From: Candidatus Thorarchaeota archaeon
GTDB lineage: Archaea; Asgardarchaeota; Thorarchaeia; Thorarchaeales; Thorarchaeaceae
Direction of reading: 5' to 3'
Length of the DNA: 34,617 nucleotides
NCBI GenBank assembly: GCA_013388835.1
Contig: JACAEL010000045.1
Coordinates: forward strand, 1 to 34,617
Part shown: one piece after another, positions 1 to 6,618 of the stretch
How the letters are laid out: each line of letters opens with the position of its first letter
Numbering within the stretch: position 1 is the first letter of the stretch
The notes under the pieces: model-generated
Seen by the model: the letters and a program-made list of their open reading frames with translations, nothing else
What the model was told of the DNA's origin: nothing
Databases searched by the model: none
Translations under genes and position numbers: made by a program

Positions 1-221
1 AGGGTTGTCTTGCCAGAGCCAGAGTCGCCTCTGACGACCACATAGTCGCCCGGTCGGATATCAAGACTCACATTGATAACGGCGTTGATCTTTCTTGTGC
101 CCACTGTATAGACTCTTGATACATCGACCAGACGGACCGCAAACTCAACTCTGTCAGCAGTTGTACCCTCAGCTTCCACAAGGTCTTCCTCGATGTCTAG
201 AGTCTCGTCCCTTTCACTCAA
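1..221 (-). CDS. ABC transporter ATP-binding protein, N-terminal part (cut by window edge)
   Basis: Only the first ~73 codons are visible; the gene runs off the left edge. The reading frame gives a typical ABC ATPase start: an A-loop-like stretch LVDVSRVYTVGTRKINAV, then a beta-strand ending in the Walker A motif GDSGSGKTT. The spacing and the VYTVG..KI.AV pattern resemble the LolD/MacB group of ATPases that work with FtsX-like permeases (family knowledge, not proven here). There is no ATG. I chose TTG at 221 because GGAG lies about 9 nt upstream; TTG at 227 and GTG at 179 are alternatives. An in-frame TAG just before 227 limits the N-terminus. It would energise export or lipoprotein/peptide handling at the membrane; the substrate cannot be told. 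Confidence 0.8.
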   Translation of the reverse strand, partial: MSERDETLDIEEDLVEAEGTTADRVEFAVRLVDVSRVYTVGTRKINAVINVSLDIRPGDYVVVRGDSGSGKTT

Positions 222-375
222 CTTCAACTACTCCGAGCAGTCACTCGACACTACTGCTGCCTTCGAGAACGGGACTCTTAATGGCTCCGATGGTAACATG
301 AATGGACTAACGAGGCCAGTACTGTTATCGTTAGGGGAGATTGTCGCAGTCTTCGCGTGTGACAGCAGAAGGACT

Positions 376-1125
376 CTAGAGGCCCACAACAGGCAGGACT
401 GAGAGAGCCCAGTCAGATAGCATCAGAGGACGCTCTCTTCCAAACACGCGAATCGTCCTCAAGACACCTGCCTCGACTAGGATGTTGGTGTAGTAGGATA
501 CTAGGCTCTTCTCGATGTTGAGGTTGCGACTCAGGGTGGCCTGAGTGACCATGGAAGTAGCGGAGCACTCACGCACGATAGCGTTCACAACAGGGTTCCT
601 AGCCAGTGCAGTAAAACGCATCAGCTGTTCGTCCATGGAGTAGTCAACCGGGAATATGTGACGGGTGTTACCGATTCTTAGAGAGGTCACTGCCCCCTCA
701 GTCTCAAGATTCTGAAGATGATATTGTAACGCACCCATCGCACAGTCCAGAGTGCGTTGCAGCTCTCTCAGATGAATCCCAGGGTTGCTCTCTATCTCCA
801 TCATGACACGGTCTCTCAGCTTTATGTTCCTCTCGCTGCGTTTCTCGGCCGCGATCGTTGTCATCGAGAAGAGGATGAGAAGTGAGGGGGTGACAACTTC
901 GCCCGATGGATGGAAGACAAGTGCTAGTGTCCCGATCTCAAGTAATCCCGAGATGGTCATGTTAGTGAACACGGAGCCACTCGGGGTGGAAAAGGTCAAG
1001 TCCTGAACAGCCAGTACATCTGAGGGGCGATCCAGTTGTCCGGACATGTGGAGACTGAAGAGGCCAGACAGTGTGAGCACTAGAGCGAATAGGGCAACTG
1101 CTCTTCCGAGTCCACTCTGCTTCAT
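376..1125 (-). CDS. Membrane-anchored regulator with two winged-helix domains
   Basis: A 249-residue protein. Residues ~8-28 form a hydrophobic segment (signal anchor) and ~56-91 give one or two further membrane segments. The rest is cytoplasmic, with two winged-helix folds. The first (~103-150) contains IHLRELQRTLDCAMGALQYH, the typical ArsR/MarR-like pattern, and the second (~180-232) contains TQATLSRNLNIEKSLVSYY. Membrane-bound double winged-helix proteins of this shape are common in Euryarchaeota and Asgard archaea. They are thought to couple an envelope signal to transcription, but no target can be named. It lies upstream of the ABC ATPase on the same strand (about 150 nt apart), so it may regulate that transporter; this is inference. 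Confidence 0.75.
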   Translation of the reverse strand: MKQSGLGRAVALFALVLTLSGLFSLHMSGQLDRPSDVLAVQDLTFSTPSGSVFTNMTISGLLEIGTLALVFHPSGEVVTPSLLILFSMTTIAAEKRSERNIKLRDRVMMEIESNPGIHLRELQRTLDCAMGALQYHLQNLETEGAVTSLRIGNTRHIFPVDYSMDEQLMRFTALARNPVVNAIVRECSATSMVTQATLSRNLNIEKSLVSYYTNILVEAGVLRTIRVFGRERPLMLSDWALSVLPVVGL

Positions 1126-1188: not shown

Positions 1189-1749
1189 CTAACCCGGGCC
1201 TGAACCCTTCGACGGGTAAGAGAGCGTTATCTTGAAAGTGCAAGACTTCGCACCTGTCGCCATGCATGTGTCTTCAATCACAACAAGCTTCTCAAACTCC
1301 ATGCGGTTCCAGTCAGTCAGGTACTCCAAGACCGCTTCTATGAAACCCTTTAGGAAGTAGCATGAGGGTTCCTGACTCTGCATACCCGCCGCATATGGGT
1401 TCTCAACAATCTCGATTACCGCCTCTTCATCCAACCAGAGCTTGTACAGCTTGGCTATCCTGACGTCACCAAAGGGAACAATCAGAGTCCCGAGCGCCAT
1501 CCTGATGAACTCGATGATGCCTTTGAAGTCTCCCGGAGGCTTCTGCTTGCCCAGTTTGAAGTACTCTCTCTGAGCTTCCAGTCCTGCAAGCCGTCCTGCA
1601 CTGTAGTATAGGTCTCTGACACGGTCAGGAAACATGACCTCGATTCTGCTTCCAATCTTGGTCCATGTCTTCGCAAAGAAGGCACGCATCAGCTCACGTT
1701 CTCTGAGCTTGCCTTGCCACCACGGAATGACTTCGGGTTCCTTGGACAT
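1189..1749 (-). CDS. V4R-domain protein
   Basis: A 186-residue soluble protein ending in the characteristic C-terminal half of the V4R (4-vinyl reductase) domain: SCYFLKGFIEAVLEYL, followed by VVIEDTCMATGAKSCTFKI. Cys130, Cys162 and Cys170 match the usual cysteine positions of V4R proteins. V4R domains are small-molecule or metal sensing folds, related in structure to the Bet3 family of TRAPP subunits. The N-terminal ~80 residues are helical and basic. The start ATG has GGGAG about 7 nt upstream. It is the last gene of an apparent three-gene unit, 57 nt after the Bet3-like gene and downstream of the roadblock gene. The ligand is unknown; a scaffold role with its neighbours is plausible. Confidence 0.75.
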   Translation of the reverse strand: MSKEPEVIPWWQGKLRERELMRAFFAKTWTKIGSRIEVMFPDRVRDLYYSAGRLAGLEAQREYFKLGKQKPPGDFKGIIEFIRMALGTLIVPFGDVRIAKLYKLWLDEEAVIEIVENPYAAGMQSQEPSCYFLKGFIEAVLEYLTDWNRMEFEKLVVIEDTCMATGAKSCTFKITLSYPSKGSGPG

Positions 1750-1806
1750 CGTTTCTCTCCCAGTCCTATTCGCAGGCGAAGAGAGTGTTAAGTGCTTTGC
1801 TATTAC

Positions 1807-2280
1807 TTATGCAAGCCGGACATTCCAGATGCAACTCGAAGCTCCTGATGCACGGCAGATCTCTTCGTAGACCTTGGACTCGACACCCTTGAACTGCAAG
1901 ATTGCCTCAAGAATCCCACTGAAGACCTCGCAGTATCCGAATCCTCTCATGCCCTCCAAATGGACCTCTTGGCACCAGATGCAGGACGCGTCGGAGATTC
2001 GTATCGACCCTCTTGCAGTCTCCATGTCAATCTCAGTAGGCCGCCGGTCGAAGAGTATCTTGAAGACGACCTCGATCAACTTGGAGACATCCTCACGGGT
2101 GGTCAGGGTCTCTTTTGTCTTGTCCACAATGTCGGTGTTCAGGTAGATTTGCCGGCCAATCTCCCGGCCGATATCTCTCAACCGGGCATTGGCCTCCTCC
2201 ACATTTGAGGTCTCAGACAACACACGGTCGACGGTCTGCGAGTACATGCTTAGCAGTAGGGGGTTCTCTATCTTAGGCAT
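1807..2280 (-). CDS. Bet3/TRAPP-like V4R protein
   Basis: A 157-residue protein. Its order of elements resembles eukaryotic Bet3 (TRAPPC3). There is an N-terminal helix pair (YSQTVDRVLSETSNVEEANARL..G..IG), then a helix with KLIEVVFKILF, a strand region, and a helix YCEVFSGILEAIL, which is where Bet3 has its lipid-channel helix. It ends in a GASSCIWNVRL strand. Unlike eukaryotic Bet3 it keeps cysteines (100, 103, 117, 142, 150), including a CIWC pair, so a metal or thiol site is possible. The V4R assignment is fairly secure. The specific Bet3 kinship comes from pattern reading without an alignment. The start has GAGGGATT close upstream. It lies 29 nt after the roadblock gene, which suggests joint expression and perhaps a complex. 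Confidence 0.7.
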   Translation of the reverse strand: MPKIENPLLLSMYSQTVDRVLSETSNVEEANARLRDIGREIGRQIYLNTDIVDKTKETLTTREDVSKLIEVVFKILFDRRPTEIDMETARGSIRISDASCIWCQEVHLEGMRGFGYCEVFSGILEAILQFKGVESKVYEEICRASGASSCIWNVRLA

Positions 2281-2309
2281 CTCAATCCCTCAGGATGTCT
2301 TGCAGCCGA

Positions 2310-3299
2310 CTAGATAGTCTTTCCGACCATCTTCATACCAATCTTCCTGTACACGGCGATTATCTGAACCACTCTCGGCTCAGGTATGCCCGCAAGTCCT
2401 GCAATCTCCGCGGTGGTCTTGTCACCCTTACACAGCTCGACCACAGGACGGTCTTCAGGTCTGACCTTGGTTATATCGCCCTCGAACAGGGGCAGTTTGA
2501 CGAACCGCCCCATTGGAGCTTCGGCAGACTTCGTTCCTTCTGCTACCGCCACTTCAGGGACGGATACAATCTTCTTGAAAGCCGCCCACTTCAAGAGCTC
2601 GACGACCCGTTCAGTGGGCTGGAACATCGACTCCGCAATCTGCCCAACTGTTCTCACACCATCGACAAGCATAAGGACATCAAAGCCGAAGTTCCGATAG
2701 ATCTTTTTCATCTCCTGATGAAGATCGGAGTCTAGTGACAGTCCACGAGAGTACTGCTCACCCTTCGTTGGCACAGTTGACGGAATGACATAGAAGTCAT
2801 CAGGCGTCAGTTCTTTCTTCGGGGGAGGCACGACAACCTCCACCCTTTCTTCTTCGACCGCTGTGGGCGCAGCAGCCGAGGGGATTTCCACAGCAGTAGA
2901 TGCAGCCTTGATAGCCACACTCTCTAACACCTGAAGATTGCTTTCGACGGACTCCTCGAAGTCAGCAGGGGGCGGAGGTAGCTCAATACCCTCTAGAAGG
3001 CGCAACACGTTCTTCGTCTTCGCAATCGCAAGACCAAGCTGGAGTTCCGGTACGTACAGAACGGTCAGAATCCAGTTGTCATCAACGGGAGCCAGTACCA
3101 CAAGTCCCTTGTCTGTGTCGATGGTCATCAGTCGAAGGTCGGTCTTGTAGAGTTTGATGCTGTCTTTCACACGTGGAAACAGCTCATCGGGAAACGCGAA
3201 GCTGACAAACGGTCGACCGGCCTTAGTCATGAGCGAATATCCCAGTACTTGATCATCAAACCTGAGTTTTGAGAGTGCCCGTTCCAAGTCGCTGGTCAT
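2310..3299 (-). CDS. Roadblock/LC7-like protein with two C-terminal winged-helix-like domains
   Basis: A 329-residue protein. Residues ~1-105 look like a roadblock/LC7 (longin-related) domain: an N-terminal helix LERALSKLRFDDQVLGYSLM, then GRPFVSFAFP, helix LFPRVKDSIKLYK, strand LRLMTIDTDKGLVVLAP and the final helix. A Pro/Ala/Val-rich linker (~110-165) follows. Then come two repeated helical domains, each with the pattern 'hhpG.pT..eIa......ppRVV.hh': VDGVRTVGQIAESMF and CKGDKTTAEIAGLAG. These resemble winged-helix or PqqD-like domains. An upstream GTG at 3338 opens the same frame but has no Shine-Dalgarno. ATG 3299 has GAGG 9 nt upstream and a TATA box 54 nt upstream, so it was preferred. 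Roadblock proteins serve as GTPase platforms or regulators. First gene of the cluster with two V4R genes. Confidence 0.7.
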   Translation of the reverse strand: MTSDLERALSKLRFDDQVLGYSLMTKAGRPFVSFAFPDELFPRVKDSIKLYKTDLRLMTIDTDKGLVVLAPVDDNWILTVLYVPELQLGLAIAKTKNVLRLLEGIELPPPPADFEESVESNLQVLESVAIKAASTAVEIPSAAAPTAVEEERVEVVVPPPKKELTPDDFYVIPSTVPTKGEQYSRGLSLDSDLHQEMKKIYRNFGFDVLMLVDGVRTVGQIAESMFQPTERVVELLKWAAFKKIVSVPEVAVAEGTKSAEAPMGRFVKLPLFEGDITKVRPEDRPVVELCKGDKTTAEIAGLAGIPEPRVVQIIAVYRKIGMKMVGKTI

Positions 3300-3348
3300 A
3301 TTGTCCAACCTCGCTTCGCTATGCTCGACCCGGCTCACTGTCTACATC

Positions 3349-3356
3349 TATACAAA
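3349..3356 (-). promoter_or_regulatory. TATA box of the roadblock/V4R unit
   Basis: The minus strand reads TTTGTATAG about 54 nt before the chosen ATG at 3299. Transcription would start ~25 nt downstream (near 3327), inside the GTG-initiated extension. This supports the shorter start of the roadblock gene. Confidence 0.4.
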
Positions 3357-3501
3357 CGACGCTTGAATCTGAAAAGGATTGTGGTGACATCGGAGAGTAT
3401 GTTGCTCATTCAGGAGTGAGCACAATCAGAGGGCAATCAGGAACAATTATGAGCTGTTCGCCTACGTGACAGTAGGTCAAGTCAGACAGGAATGATAAGA
3501 T

Positions 3502-4068
3502 ATGAGAAACTCTGCGGGAGGGTTCCTCTCCACTATTGCAGGGGCAGTGCTGCTGAGCCGAACTGTGAGCAGTGGGCACTACTACCAGCCGCCATATGAC
3601 CTGCTCTCACCACTGCTCCAAGGCTGCGAGTTGCTGGGCCGAACACCACAGGGCCTTCTCAACAGCACTACCACATTTGCATATTTGGTTGTATGGGCAG
3701 TCACTGGTGCACTCATGGGGCTCTTTTCAAGACCGGGCTGGAACACATGCAGAACGACACTCTGGATGGGGTTCTTTGCGGCCCTCTTCGCTACTGTATC
3801 AAGACTGCTCGTCGACCCGGCATTCTGGACTTCATCTGGACGAAACCTCGAACTCCTGCTCACATTCGTTACTTTCAGCATGATTACACAGATAGGGCTG
3901 ATTGGAGCACTGCCGGTATCCACGCTGCTTAGCCGCCTGATGCTAGGGCACGATGCACCACTGCCGACCAAGATAGAGACTGTATGTACTTGCGGCGCAG
4001 TCTTCAGATCAATACCAATCCTCTGCTCGGAATGCGGAAGGACACTTCGCACAGGACATGAAGAGTGA
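3502..4068 (+). CDS. Small membrane protein with C-terminal zinc ribbon
   Basis: I do not recognise a named family. The 188-residue protein has about four hydrophobic segments (~8-20, 58-75, 87-105, 118-147). It ends with a cytoplasmic zinc-ribbon-like motif CTCG...(10)...CSECG, whose four cysteines could bind one zinc. A purine-rich GGAATGA sits just before the ATG. It is convergent with the next membrane gene (4250-4750, minus) across a 181-nt gap holding a tandem repeat. Archaeal genomes carry many such membrane proteins with a C-terminal zinc ribbon, usually of unknown role. Confidence 0.6.
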   Translation: MRNSAGGFLSTIAGAVLLSRTVSSGHYYQPPYDLLSPLLQGCELLGRTPQGLLNSTTTFAYLVVWAVTGALMGLFSRPGWNTCRTTLWMGFFAALFATVSRLLVDPAFWTSSGRNLELLLTFVTFSMITQIGLIGALPVSTLLSRLMLGHDAPLPTKIETVCTCGAVFRSIPILCSECGRTLRTGHEE

Positions 4069-4249: not shown

Positions 4250-4750
4250 TCAGCGCTCCCGTGTTATTGCACCTCCAAGAGCCCCACCAATTCCTGCAGC
4301 AATGACTGGGTACAGACATCCTTCCAAGACGAACTGCAGCAGTAACAGAGACTCACCACCGAAGATGGCAGCGAAGTCAAGGGTGTTGATGAAGAACACA
4401 AGCAGCCATGTCAGAAAGGCCCCGATGATGACCGAGAAGACCGCCGCAAACACAGCTGGAGGGACGTTGCGGGTCATGAGACCTGCAATCAGACCACCTG
4501 TGCCCCATGCCAAGAACATGAGCACCGTGCTGCTCTGCGCGCCCACTCCCAGTTGCGTGCCGAGAAGAGGAGGGTAGAGCACAGTGCCGACAACAGCCAG
4601 CCGAATCTCAAGGTCTGTACTGCTCAGGAAGTCAAGCACTGTGGCAGCGTCAATCAGCTGAGATGGCATCAGTGCACCAAACGTGAGTAGTAGAAAGCAC
4701 ATGACAAACGCAACAATCAAGCCAGTCAAAGTGCCAAGTATCTGACCCAA
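4250..4750 (-). CDS. Four-span membrane protein, unknown function
   Basis: A 166-residue, very hydrophobic protein with about four membrane segments (~4-28, 52-68, 74-90, 99-122) and a Gly-rich C-terminal helix (IAAGIGGALGGAI). No enzyme motif is visible. The start is TTG at 4750, supported by a perfect GGAGG 7 nt upstream (4758-4762) and by a TATA box 54 nt upstream on the same strand. The composition resembles small archaeal membrane proteins of unknown function. It is transcribed alone. Confidence 0.6.
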   Translation of the reverse strand: MGQILGTLTGLIVAFVMCFLLLTFGALMPSQLIDAATVLDFLSSTDLEIRLAVVGTVLYPPLLGTQLGVGAQSSTVLMFLAWGTGGLIAGLMTRNVPPAVFAAVFSVIIGAFLTWLLVFFINTLDFAAIFGGESLLLLQFVLEGCLYPVIAAGIGGALGGAITRER

Positions 4751-4757
4751 CAGATGG

Positions 4758-4808
4758 CCTCCATGTTCGGTGATTCATCAGAAACTTCACCTCGAGAGCA
4801 TTTATAGC
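4758..4808 (-). promoter_or_regulatory. TATA box and Shine-Dalgarno that fix a TTG start
   Basis: On the minus strand CTATAAA (4801-4808) is followed ~54 nt later by TTG at 4750. GGAGG at 4758-4762 lies 7 nt before that TTG. Both signals agree on the TTG start of the four-span membrane protein gene. Confidence 0.55.
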
Positions 4809-4925
4809 TATGCAGTCAGACATAGGCAACTGGACCTCGGACCGACAACCGAGCTGAGAAGAGACATTACGAACCCGAGTTCAGTGATGTGTCGCATCCT
4901 GTAGCCTCTCTCGGCCAGTCAGGCA

Positions 4926-6035
4926 CTACTGTATGCCCAGAAGACGTTTTCCTTGATGGGACATGCTGGGGGACGAACGCAGGTATGTCATCACCTCTTC
5001 TCGGGTGGGATGTCTCGCATCTGGTGATGACACATACTTGGCAGCTACTGCGTTGGCCAGCACCAGACGGTCTTCGACCTCGAGACTCATCAGCGTGCCG
5101 AGTATGTCACCAGCGTTCCACGAGTCGCCAGCACCACACACCACCCTGCTGACTTCACTGAAGGTGGGTACTGCCACCGAATGAGAGCCTTTCACTGAGG
5201 CAGAGAAGTGTGGTGTGTGAAGGTCAACTCTTATACCGGTCTCCGCGGATATTCGCTCAGCTGCACCAAGCCACAGTTCAGGCTCCCCAATTAGCCGACT
5301 CCAGTCCCTCGTGCTGTCTTCTAGAGCGACGAGGAACCATCTTGCCTCATTCTCATTCATGCTGACTATGTCCACAAGCCCCTCTCTAATCACATTATCG
5401 ACGAGCGGCTTGACAATGCCGGGGTTGCCAGAGGGGTCGCCCATGTCCATGAATGTCAAGGCTCTGGACTCCTGATGAACCATCTCAAAGAGATTGGAGG
5501 CGAGGTCAGCGGCAGCCCGGTTGTGGTTTAGGCACAGGAGTGCTACAAGGCTCGAGTCACGTATGCATCTCAAGTCAGCATCACTCAGGTCCGAGTAAGA
5601 AAAGTCCGCTGCAGACCCGCTATCGCTCACCATGAGATTCACTCTTCGCCCATTGTATTCAGCCTCAATGGATACTGTGGCTGCCAGTCTGCCATCGCAA
5701 TGTACGTGACTCAGGTCCATCGTGGGGTCTGTGAGCGCACGAAGTAGAGCGGCCCCTTGGGGGTCCGTCTTTGTGATCAACACGGGCGCAAGCCCGAGAG
5801 AGAGCAGCGCAGAGGCAGTGTTGGGCGAGTTCCCACCCCGACGAATGAGATGCCTCGTCCCCATGAGATTACCGCCACCCTGTTCAGCAACAACCCTCAT
5901 CTCTCTGAATAGTGCCTCCAGACCCCCAGCAATAACAAAGTGGTCAACAAAGAAGTCAGGGAGTATGACGGGGGGTCTCATGGTCAGGGACCCATCAAGA
6001 GCATGGATGAGCCGGTCGAACTCCAGCTCAAACAC
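4926..6035 (-). CDS. PfkB-family carbohydrate kinase
   Basis: A ribokinase/PfkB-type sugar or nucleoside kinase that phosphorylates a hydroxyl group using ATP. The substrate side shows GGNSPNTASALLSLGL (residues ~67-82), the family's first signature. The anion-hole and catalytic signature is VCGAGDSWNAGD (~299-310), with Asp304 as the expected base. A NENEA element (~227) is the usual phosphate/Mg region. At 369 residues it is longer than the usual ~300-330, with an N-terminal extension of ~25 residues. The start is a GTG with a weak Shine-Dalgarno; ATG 5981 is an alternative. It lies 31 nt downstream of the L13e gene and is probably cotranscribed with it. The substrate cannot be assigned from sequence alone. 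Confidence 0.8.
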   Translation of the reverse strand: MFELEFDRLIHALDGSLTMRPPVILPDFFVDHFVIAGGLEALFREMRVVAEQGGGNLMGTRHLIRRGGNSPNTASALLSLGLAPVLITKTDPQGAALLRALTDPTMDLSHVHCDGRLAATVSIEAEYNGRRVNLMVSDSGSAADFSYSDLSDADLRCIRDSSLVALLCLNHNRAAADLASNLFEMVHQESRALTFMDMGDPSGNPGIVKPLVDNVIREGLVDIVSMNENEARWFLVALEDSTRDWSRLIGEPELWLGAAERISAETGIRVDLHTPHFSASVKGSHSVAVPTFSEVSRVVCGAGDSWNAGDILGTLMSLEVEDRLVLANAVAAKYVSSPDARHPTREEVMTYLRSSPSMSHQGKRLLGIQ

Positions 6036-6066: not shown

Positions 6067-6519
6067 CTAAATCTTCTTGAGAGCCGCGCTTATCATGCTC
6101 TTCAGCTTCGCCTCATCGATGCCAGTCTTCTTTGTCACCTTGGCGACGTCACAATAGGCCAGCTGGTCAATGCTGCGAATCCCGGCCTTCACAAGGAGCT
6201 TGGCATCGTCCGCACTCACCGCACTCAGCGAAGACAGGACAGTCACAGGGTCTGTCGAATCAACATGTGGAGTCTCGGCCTCAGTTGTGGCAAGGGACTC
6301 TGCCATCTTCTGAATATCCTCAAGGAATCTCTTGAGAGCCTCTACGTTCTCAGGATAGGAGCTGCGTCTGCGAATGTCTATCATGAGACCCATTCGCCTG
6401 CATTCCACAACAGTGAGACCCGCCTCACTTACCTCGCCTCTGCTGAATCCGCGACCGATTCGCGACTTTAGGTCCTTGGGCGACTTCACAGTAGGTTCGG
6501 CAATTGTTATGAAGCTCAT
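6067..6519 (-). CDS. Ribosomal protein L13e homologue with C-terminal helix-hairpin-helix domain
   Basis: Residues ~8-65 match the L13e core: KSRIGRGFSRGEVSEAGL, then GLMIDIRRRSSYPENVEALK, which corresponds to the eukaryotic GRGF..EEL..AG and G..VD.RRRN..ES....V..LK pattern. L13e is a large-subunit protein shared by eukaryotes and some archaea and missing in Bacteria. After an acidic linker the C-terminus (~95-150) is a helix-hairpin-helix domain (SAVSADDAKLLVKAGIRSID..), as in RecA/Rad51 N-termini; such a fusion may add RNA binding. A GTG at 6546 extends the frame, but ATG 6519 has GGTGA 7 nt upstream and a TATA-like CTAATAAG ~43 nt upstream, so it was chosen. It heads a unit with the sugar kinase. 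Confidence 0.75.
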   Translation of the reverse strand: MSFITIAEPTVKSPKDLKSRIGRGFSRGEVSEAGLTVVECRRMGLMIDIRRRSSYPENVEALKRFLEDIQKMAESLATTEAETPHVDSTDPVTVLSSLSAVSADDAKLLVKAGIRSIDQLAYCDVAKVTKKTGIDEAKLKSMISAALKKI

Positions 6520-6618
6520 ATGCTGGTCACCTGACTCGGCTCCCACCCCTGAGGTTCACTTATTAGCCTTTCGAGATGGCCCTCAGACGGGGATGCGTGA
6601 AGCGGTTGCACCGGCATG

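Follow-up and report, generated by a model that had tools for sequence, protein, structure and literature searches.

In eukaryotes, the Rab-binding centre of the TRAPP complex is made of TRAPPC1 (Bet5) and TRAPPC4 and is flanked by two TRAPPC3 subunits (PMC10152722, PMC8204870). Homology between V4R domains and Bet3 was proposed in 2008, with M1 and M2 motifs carrying two glycine pairs as the mark of the family (PMC2253512). The closest archaeal proteins described so far are the TRAPPC3 proteins of Thorarchaeota, which crystallised as zinc homodimers with internal cavities, are closest to TRAPPC3, and bind zinc through four cysteines (7YH2, 7YH3; PMC10933270). That study deals with the protein alone, with no mention of adjacent roadblock and V4R genes, of the paralogous gene pair described below, or of a pairing in other Asgard archaea. 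It also reports that Asgard roadblock and TRAPPC3 proteins showed no membrane localisation in HeLa cells and that a Heimdall archaeon encodes a longin-TRAPPC3 fusion (MBD3190748.1), presented as a single case and unconnected to adjacent-gene pairing (PMC10933270). Two further systems bear comparison, namely the MglB roadblock protein with its GTPase MglA and the GATOR1 subunits NPRL2/NPRL3, of which the yeast counterparts Npr2/Npr3 combine a longin domain with tandem winged helices (PMC3521125).

In the thorarchaeal locus described here, a TRAPPC3 homologue (gene B) lies between a gene for a predicted roadblock and winged-helix protein (gene A) and a V4R gene (gene C). The unit is like the eukaryotic TRAPP core in bringing together Bet3-family subunits and a roadblock/longin-fold subunit, the partner being Bet5-like in two other Asgard families (f27 and f28) and fused in f28; it is like MglB/MglA in its roadblock platform and link to small GTPases, and like GATOR1 in that A has a longin/roadblock-class N-terminal domain followed by tandem winged helices. 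Compared with the TRAPP core, which uses the longins TRAPPC1/C4 with TRAPPC3/C5/C6, the window has a roadblock instead of a longin, C-terminal winged helices, a zinc site, and no cysteine at the palmitate position; to our knowledge, the eukaryotic core contains no winged helices. MglB, for its part, is not known to have a Bet3 partner or winged helices, and no GTPase gene lies inside the A-B-C unit, whereas A differs from NPRL2/NPRL3 in having two rather than three winged helices and in being paired with a Bet3 homologue. In the window, the neighbour of B is not a longin like that of the TRAPP core, Bet5-like longins being found in f27 and f28 only, and because the partner in the window is a roadblock and the assembly is inferred, the unit is not filed here as a TRAPP complex. 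The Bet3 likeness of B and its zinc site are already published (PMC10933270); the neighbourhood appears to be new, provisionally, as no report of a Bet3-roadblock/longin gene pairing was found in the mostly open-access literature searched.

Organisation of the unit and its products

The window, that is, the whole stretch of 34,617 nucleotides analysed, comes from a contig (C45) of a 3.0 Mb genome that is 97.6% complete. Its relevant features are as follows.

1189..1749, minus strand: gene C, V4R-domain protein with predicted Bet3/V4R fold, 186 aa (Pfam V4R, 43.7 bits; AlphaFold2; Foldseek)
1807..2280, minus strand: gene B, TRAPPC3/Bet3-like protein, 157 aa (Pfam TRAPP, 40 bits; 7YH2/7YH3, E 6e-76; profile to eukaryotic TRAPPC3, 8.5e-16)
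1831..1983, minus strand: zinc-site cysteine region of B, C100, C103, C117 and C150 (conservation in 39 homologues; zinc-binding cysteines in orthologue crystals, PMC10933270)
2310..3299, minus strand: gene A, 329 aa, predicted roadblock domain and two winged helices (20/20 family loci with an orthologue)
2316..2510, minus strand: predicted second winged helix of A, residues 264-328, common to TRAPPC3 partners across Asgard families (AlphaFold2 and winged-helix profile searches)
2550..2732, minus strand: predicted first winged helix of A, about residues 190-250 (AlphaFold2)
2988..3299, minus strand: predicted roadblock domain of A, residues 1-104 (AlphaFold2 element order; Foldseek)
3368..3386, minus strand: conserved element CACCACAATCCTTTTCAGA ahead of A, probably the promoter (BRE/TATA-type) of the unit (recurrence with few changes in all ten compared loci)
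4751..4925, no strand: site of the paralogous A'-B' pair, present in 19 of 20 family loci and empty in the window (locus comparison; genome-wide search)

Open reading frame calls agree with the preliminary description that A, B, and C follow one another on the minus strand with gaps of 29 and 57 nt. The ATG of A is preceded by a conserved, Shine-Dalgarno-like GAGGT. A TATA box had been thought to head the unit, but the TATA-like GTTTGTATAGAT is not conserved among the orthologues compared and was dropped as promoter for that reason. Another element, CACCACAAT[C/G]CTTTTCAGA, is kept with few changes roughly 70-90 nt before the ATG of A in 10/10 compared loci, and this sequence recurrence makes CACCACAATCCTTTTCAGA the likely BRE/TATA-type promoter. 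A fourth gene, for a winged-helix regulator of HVO_0163 type with apparent membrane segments, begins 63 nt past C and is accompanied by genes for an ABC ATPase and an FtsX-type permease (window 1-1125; L036:9211-12674), hinting at an envelope or lipid context.

Gene B matches TRAPP (PF04051) at 4.2e-10 with 40 bits against a cut-off of 27 and gives no Pfam match to V4R. Its closest solved structures are those entitled 'TRAPPC3 from Thorarchaeota' (7YH2, E 6e-76; 7YH3, E 6e-75; ~70% identical), of which B is by sequence an orthologue, so that its Bet3-like nature was already known. The proteins crystallised in that work (PMC10933270) are encoded by B in AB25 and SMTZ1-45, and the locus comparison made here shows B flanked by A and C, in the same operon, in both genomes. 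When compared with solved structures, a profile of the Asgard B family reaches TRAPPC3 (8.5e-16), yeast Bet3 (5e-10), TRAPPC6 (2e-6), and TRAPPC5 (1e-4) and no V4R structure at E<=1. The TRAPP match, the lack of a V4R match, and the reach of the profile to TRAPPC3 support the earlier view that B resembles Bet3 and not merely a generic V4R protein. The cysteine cluster proposed at positions 100, 103, 117, 142, and 150 stands in part: across 39 homologues, C100, C103, and C150 are invariant and C117 is more than 90% conserved, these four being the zinc site, whereas C142 is not conserved. Regarding the glycine motifs, the G38-G42 pair is present with only G38 invariant in the family, and the second motif keeps G122 with an alanine four residues on. 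The fly TRAPPC3 cysteine that we take to be the palmitate carrier of animal TRAPPC3 aligns with a non-cysteine residue in B, and the palmitoyl-accepting cysteine is a mark of eukaryotic TRAPPC3 function rather than of the fold family. A pattern scan of GTDB contigs with B alone returned 31 records, titled Thorarchaeota except for two labelled 'archaeon' and one labelled Lokiarchaeota.

The N-terminal domain of A is a roadblock by its predicted fold, although by Pfam sequence score it is not a member, the match to Robl_LC7 (PF03259) staying below threshold at 13.3 bits against a cut-off of 23. The AlphaFold2 model, based on 39 sequences and with a mean pLDDT of 84, comprises a roadblock domain, a disordered linker, and two winged helices. 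Residues 1-104 are predicted with high confidence in the order H-E-E-H-E-E-E-H, as a five-stranded sheet flanked by N- and C-terminal helices, and Foldseek matches A to Asgard roadblocks, LAMTOR2/3, and MglB. The assignment is made on the predicted fold because a profile of the A family gave only weak roadblock matches; PDB searches with the single A or C protein returned nothing useful. Gene C matches V4R (PF02830) at 2.9e-11 with 43.7 bits against a cut-off of 31, and its AlphaFold2 model has the full Bet3/V4R fold, to which phenol sensors and TRAPPC3 are about equally near in Foldseek. Fold prediction and Foldseek thus bear out the initial reading of A as a roadblock protein with two winged-helix-like domains and, together with a Pfam score above cut-off, that of C as a V4R protein. 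C occurs in 40 of the 47 genomes of the window's family, with few weak, mostly partial matches elsewhere. As a separate observation, the window's genome also holds three roadblock genes clustered inside 1.9 kb (G000:C21:8590-10413).

Conservation in the family and pairing across Asgard archaea

Conservation of gene order in relatives, on which the preliminary description had made its reading depend, is found throughout: all three genes occur in the order A-B-C in 20/20 related loci from 12 other genera. A paralogous A'-B' pair lies two genes upstream of A in 19/20 loci, A' being about 35% identical to A and B' about 27% to B. In the window's genome, no such pair separates the PfkB-type kinase gene (4926-6035) from the membrane-protein gene (4250-4750), and neither A' nor B' was found elsewhere in that genome; both are also absent genome-wide from the single-contig genome G214. 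In the tree, B and B' group in a single clade with full support, and the A-B pair was therefore duplicated as a unit inside the family; the inner order of this clade is uncertain because the branch to B is long. That the two genes were duplicated together, and that the copies are missing together, is good evidence that A and B work together. Between the A'-B' site and A-B, every family locus examined carries two conserved genes for apparent membrane proteins (window 4250-4750 and 3502-4068), whose products have no significant Pfam match, the second ending in a weak zinc-ribbon match. A 159-aa protein matching ribosomal protein L13e and a helix-hairpin-helix (window 6067-6546) is conserved next to the PfkB-type kinase gene.

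The B-family profile finds a match in 107 of 228 Asgard genomes at E<=1e-6. Most families with a strong TRAPPC3 homologue have a co-directional neighbour that combines a C-terminal winged helix (signature like LCDG..T..EIA) with a variable N-terminal domain. Judged, except for A, by sequence pattern and weak profile matches, this domain is roadblock-like in f2, f4, f14, and one f24 partner, a longin or probable longin in f27, another f24 partner, and f25, and a zinc ribbon in f12. The best match of the roadblock-like partners is a roadblock structure (E 0.007), and that of the f27 and f28 longin partners, in the whole PDB and with a query free of eukaryotic sequences, is the yeast TRAPP subunit Bet5 (5e-4 and 0.0076). 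Across the phylum, Sybindin (PF04099) exceeds its threshold in no more than four genomes and does not detect the longins next to TRAPP genes. Direct fusions also occur: f28 encodes a longin-TRAPP fusion of 296 aa (L058), of the kind known from the Heimdall archaeon, in which no winged helix was detected, and in f29 a winged helix is fused to a TRAPP/V4R domain (L093). Tandem TRAPP genes without a winged-helix partner occur in f3 and f13, and such a partner is likewise missing beside some of the copies in f14 and beside the strong copy in f29.

The all-lineage winged-helix profile was trained on the partners, with possible circularity, and the neighbour test was therefore repeated with a profile built from the window's family only. 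In 35 other Asgard genomes, chosen mostly for having TRAPP matches, this profile gave 49 matches at E<=1.2e-5, of which 13 (in 13 genomes and seven families) lay within 300 nt of a TRAPP match, against ~0.03 expected from the number of TRAPP matches in each genome. With a direct fusion and Bet5-like longin partners, the proposal that an archaeal unit pairs the Bet3 fold with a fold of the roadblock/longin class is supported far beyond the window. Genomes G081, G082, G083, and G084 (f15-f17) hold many matches to the same winged helix, several per protein, that are not beside TRAPP genes.

GTPase genes occur in related contexts. In the f27 loci L060 (4812-8432) and L063, the pair of Bet5-like longin and TRAPPC3-like genes is directly preceded by two or three genes for Ras-family GTPases. 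A sibling operon in the window's genome (L002:1402-3058; G000:C78) and in seven relatives encodes first a Ras-family GTPase, then a zinc-ribbon/winged-helix protein, and last a V4R/TRAPP-like protein. This order is kept in 9/9 copies from eight genomes, which lie mostly beside a convergent gene for an FAD enzyme resembling geranylgeranyl reductase.

Possible assembly and alternative readings

Our results favour, with some reserve, a reading in which A and B belong as subunits to one TRAPP-core-like module, which probably serves as a ligand-responsive scaffold for a small GTPase. A physical complex of A and B is fairly probable, whereas regulation of a GTPase by the module, for which the sibling operons with a GTPase are the main indication, is put forward tentatively. 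B would form a zinc-stabilised homodimer of Bet3 type with a hydrophobic cavity, as in the orthologue crystals, and A would provide a roadblock platform of the small-GTPase-binding kind followed by two C-terminal winged helices, the last of which is probably a contact or targeting part because it is a constant feature of the partners of B. C, as a second subunit of Bet3/V4R fold, could take up a hydrophobic ligand or associate with B in the way that TRAPPC5/C6 associate with TRAPPC3. The assembly would most likely sense a lipid or other hydrophobic ligand and scaffold or regulate a Ras-family GTPase at a membrane; the cavities seen in the orthologue crystals and the relationship to V4R point to ligand binding, and the folds and the sibling operons to GTPase regulation. 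Counting against this reading are the lack of a GTPase gene in the unit, the roadblock in place of the TRAPPC1/C4 longin, the winged helices that are not known from the eukaryotic core, the families and copies that have no such partner, the zinc-ribbon N-terminal domain of the partner in f12 and in the GTPase operon, the basic second winged helix of A, and the failure of Asgard roadblock and TRAPPC3 proteins to reach membranes in HeLa cells (PMC10933270).

The unit might instead be a ligand-responsive transcription regulator, in which the winged helices of A bind DNA, the roadblock only dimerises A, and B and C take up a hydrophobic effector, in the manner of the V4R sensors PoxR and MopR, and switch A on or off. 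We consider this unlikely, but it stays alive because A has a basic second winged helix (pI about 9.5, with a net charge of +3 to +4 over the 14 residues of the last helix in A orthologues), as in DNA-binding proteins. Also in its favour, a winged helix is the only part that all partners share, C is as close to phenol sensors as to Bet3, genes for a winged-helix regulator and for ABC/FtsX proteins come after C, and fusions of V4R to regulatory domains are frequent (PMC2253512). Against it, the corresponding helix of A' is much less basic, winged helices can also mediate contacts between proteins (Npr2/Npr3 being an example), none is seen in the f28 fusion, the sibling operons contain GTPase genes, and the partners have roadblock or longin domains, some of the latter Bet5-like, that are absent from known V4R regulators.

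It is improbable that B and C act on their own as lipid- or ligand-binding V4R/TRAPPC3 proteins, forming no common complex with A, whose operon they would share only for the sake of expression. Such a role would suit the crystallised B, a homodimer by itself with internal cavities (PMC10933270), but A and B are jointly duplicated and jointly absent, the pair recurs in several Asgard families far above chance, and fusions occur in f28 and f29. That A is the archaeal counterpart of GATOR1 NPRL2/NPRL3, a GAP for a Rag-like GTPase to which the neighbourhood of B is secondary, is very improbable, and NPRL2 was set aside as a true homologue: NPRL2/Npr2 heads the whole-chain Foldseek matches of A (E 3e-6) with the same domain order, but only that order agrees, the chains superposing poorly (TM about 0.2 at an rmsd of about 21 A), the AlphaFold2 N-terminal domain of A beginning with the roadblock N-terminal helix and so having roadblock rather than longin topology, and no sequence match to NPRL2 being seen in the PDB search with A or with the A family profile.

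Relation to the eukaryotic TRAPP core

For the TRAPP-core-like module, the pairing of Bet3 with roadblock or longin proteins in Asgard archaea suggests a combination older than eukaryotes. A further step, which is doubtful but of wider consequence, would be that an operon-borne minimal TRAPP core of Asgard archaea, with a Bet3 homologue, a roadblock or Bet5-like longin, and a winged-helix tail, comes together as a complex with action on its cognate Ras-family GTPase and that the TRAPP core was inherited from archaea. If this were true, the TRAPP core would be an archaeal machine passed on to eukaryotes and not one built during eukaryogenesis, which bears on the origin of the Rab-activating TRAPP machine. 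The recurrent pair, the two fusions, and the sibling operons with a GTPase provide concrete protein pairs for co-expression, with some of the single proteins already crystallised. As an observation in its own right, gene trios of the order TRAPP/V4R-TRAPP/V4R-longin are found in L062, L066, L067, and L071, and in the first three of these loci a small gene comes next and then a large one encoding about 800 aa, the latter without a Pfam match where tested (L062).
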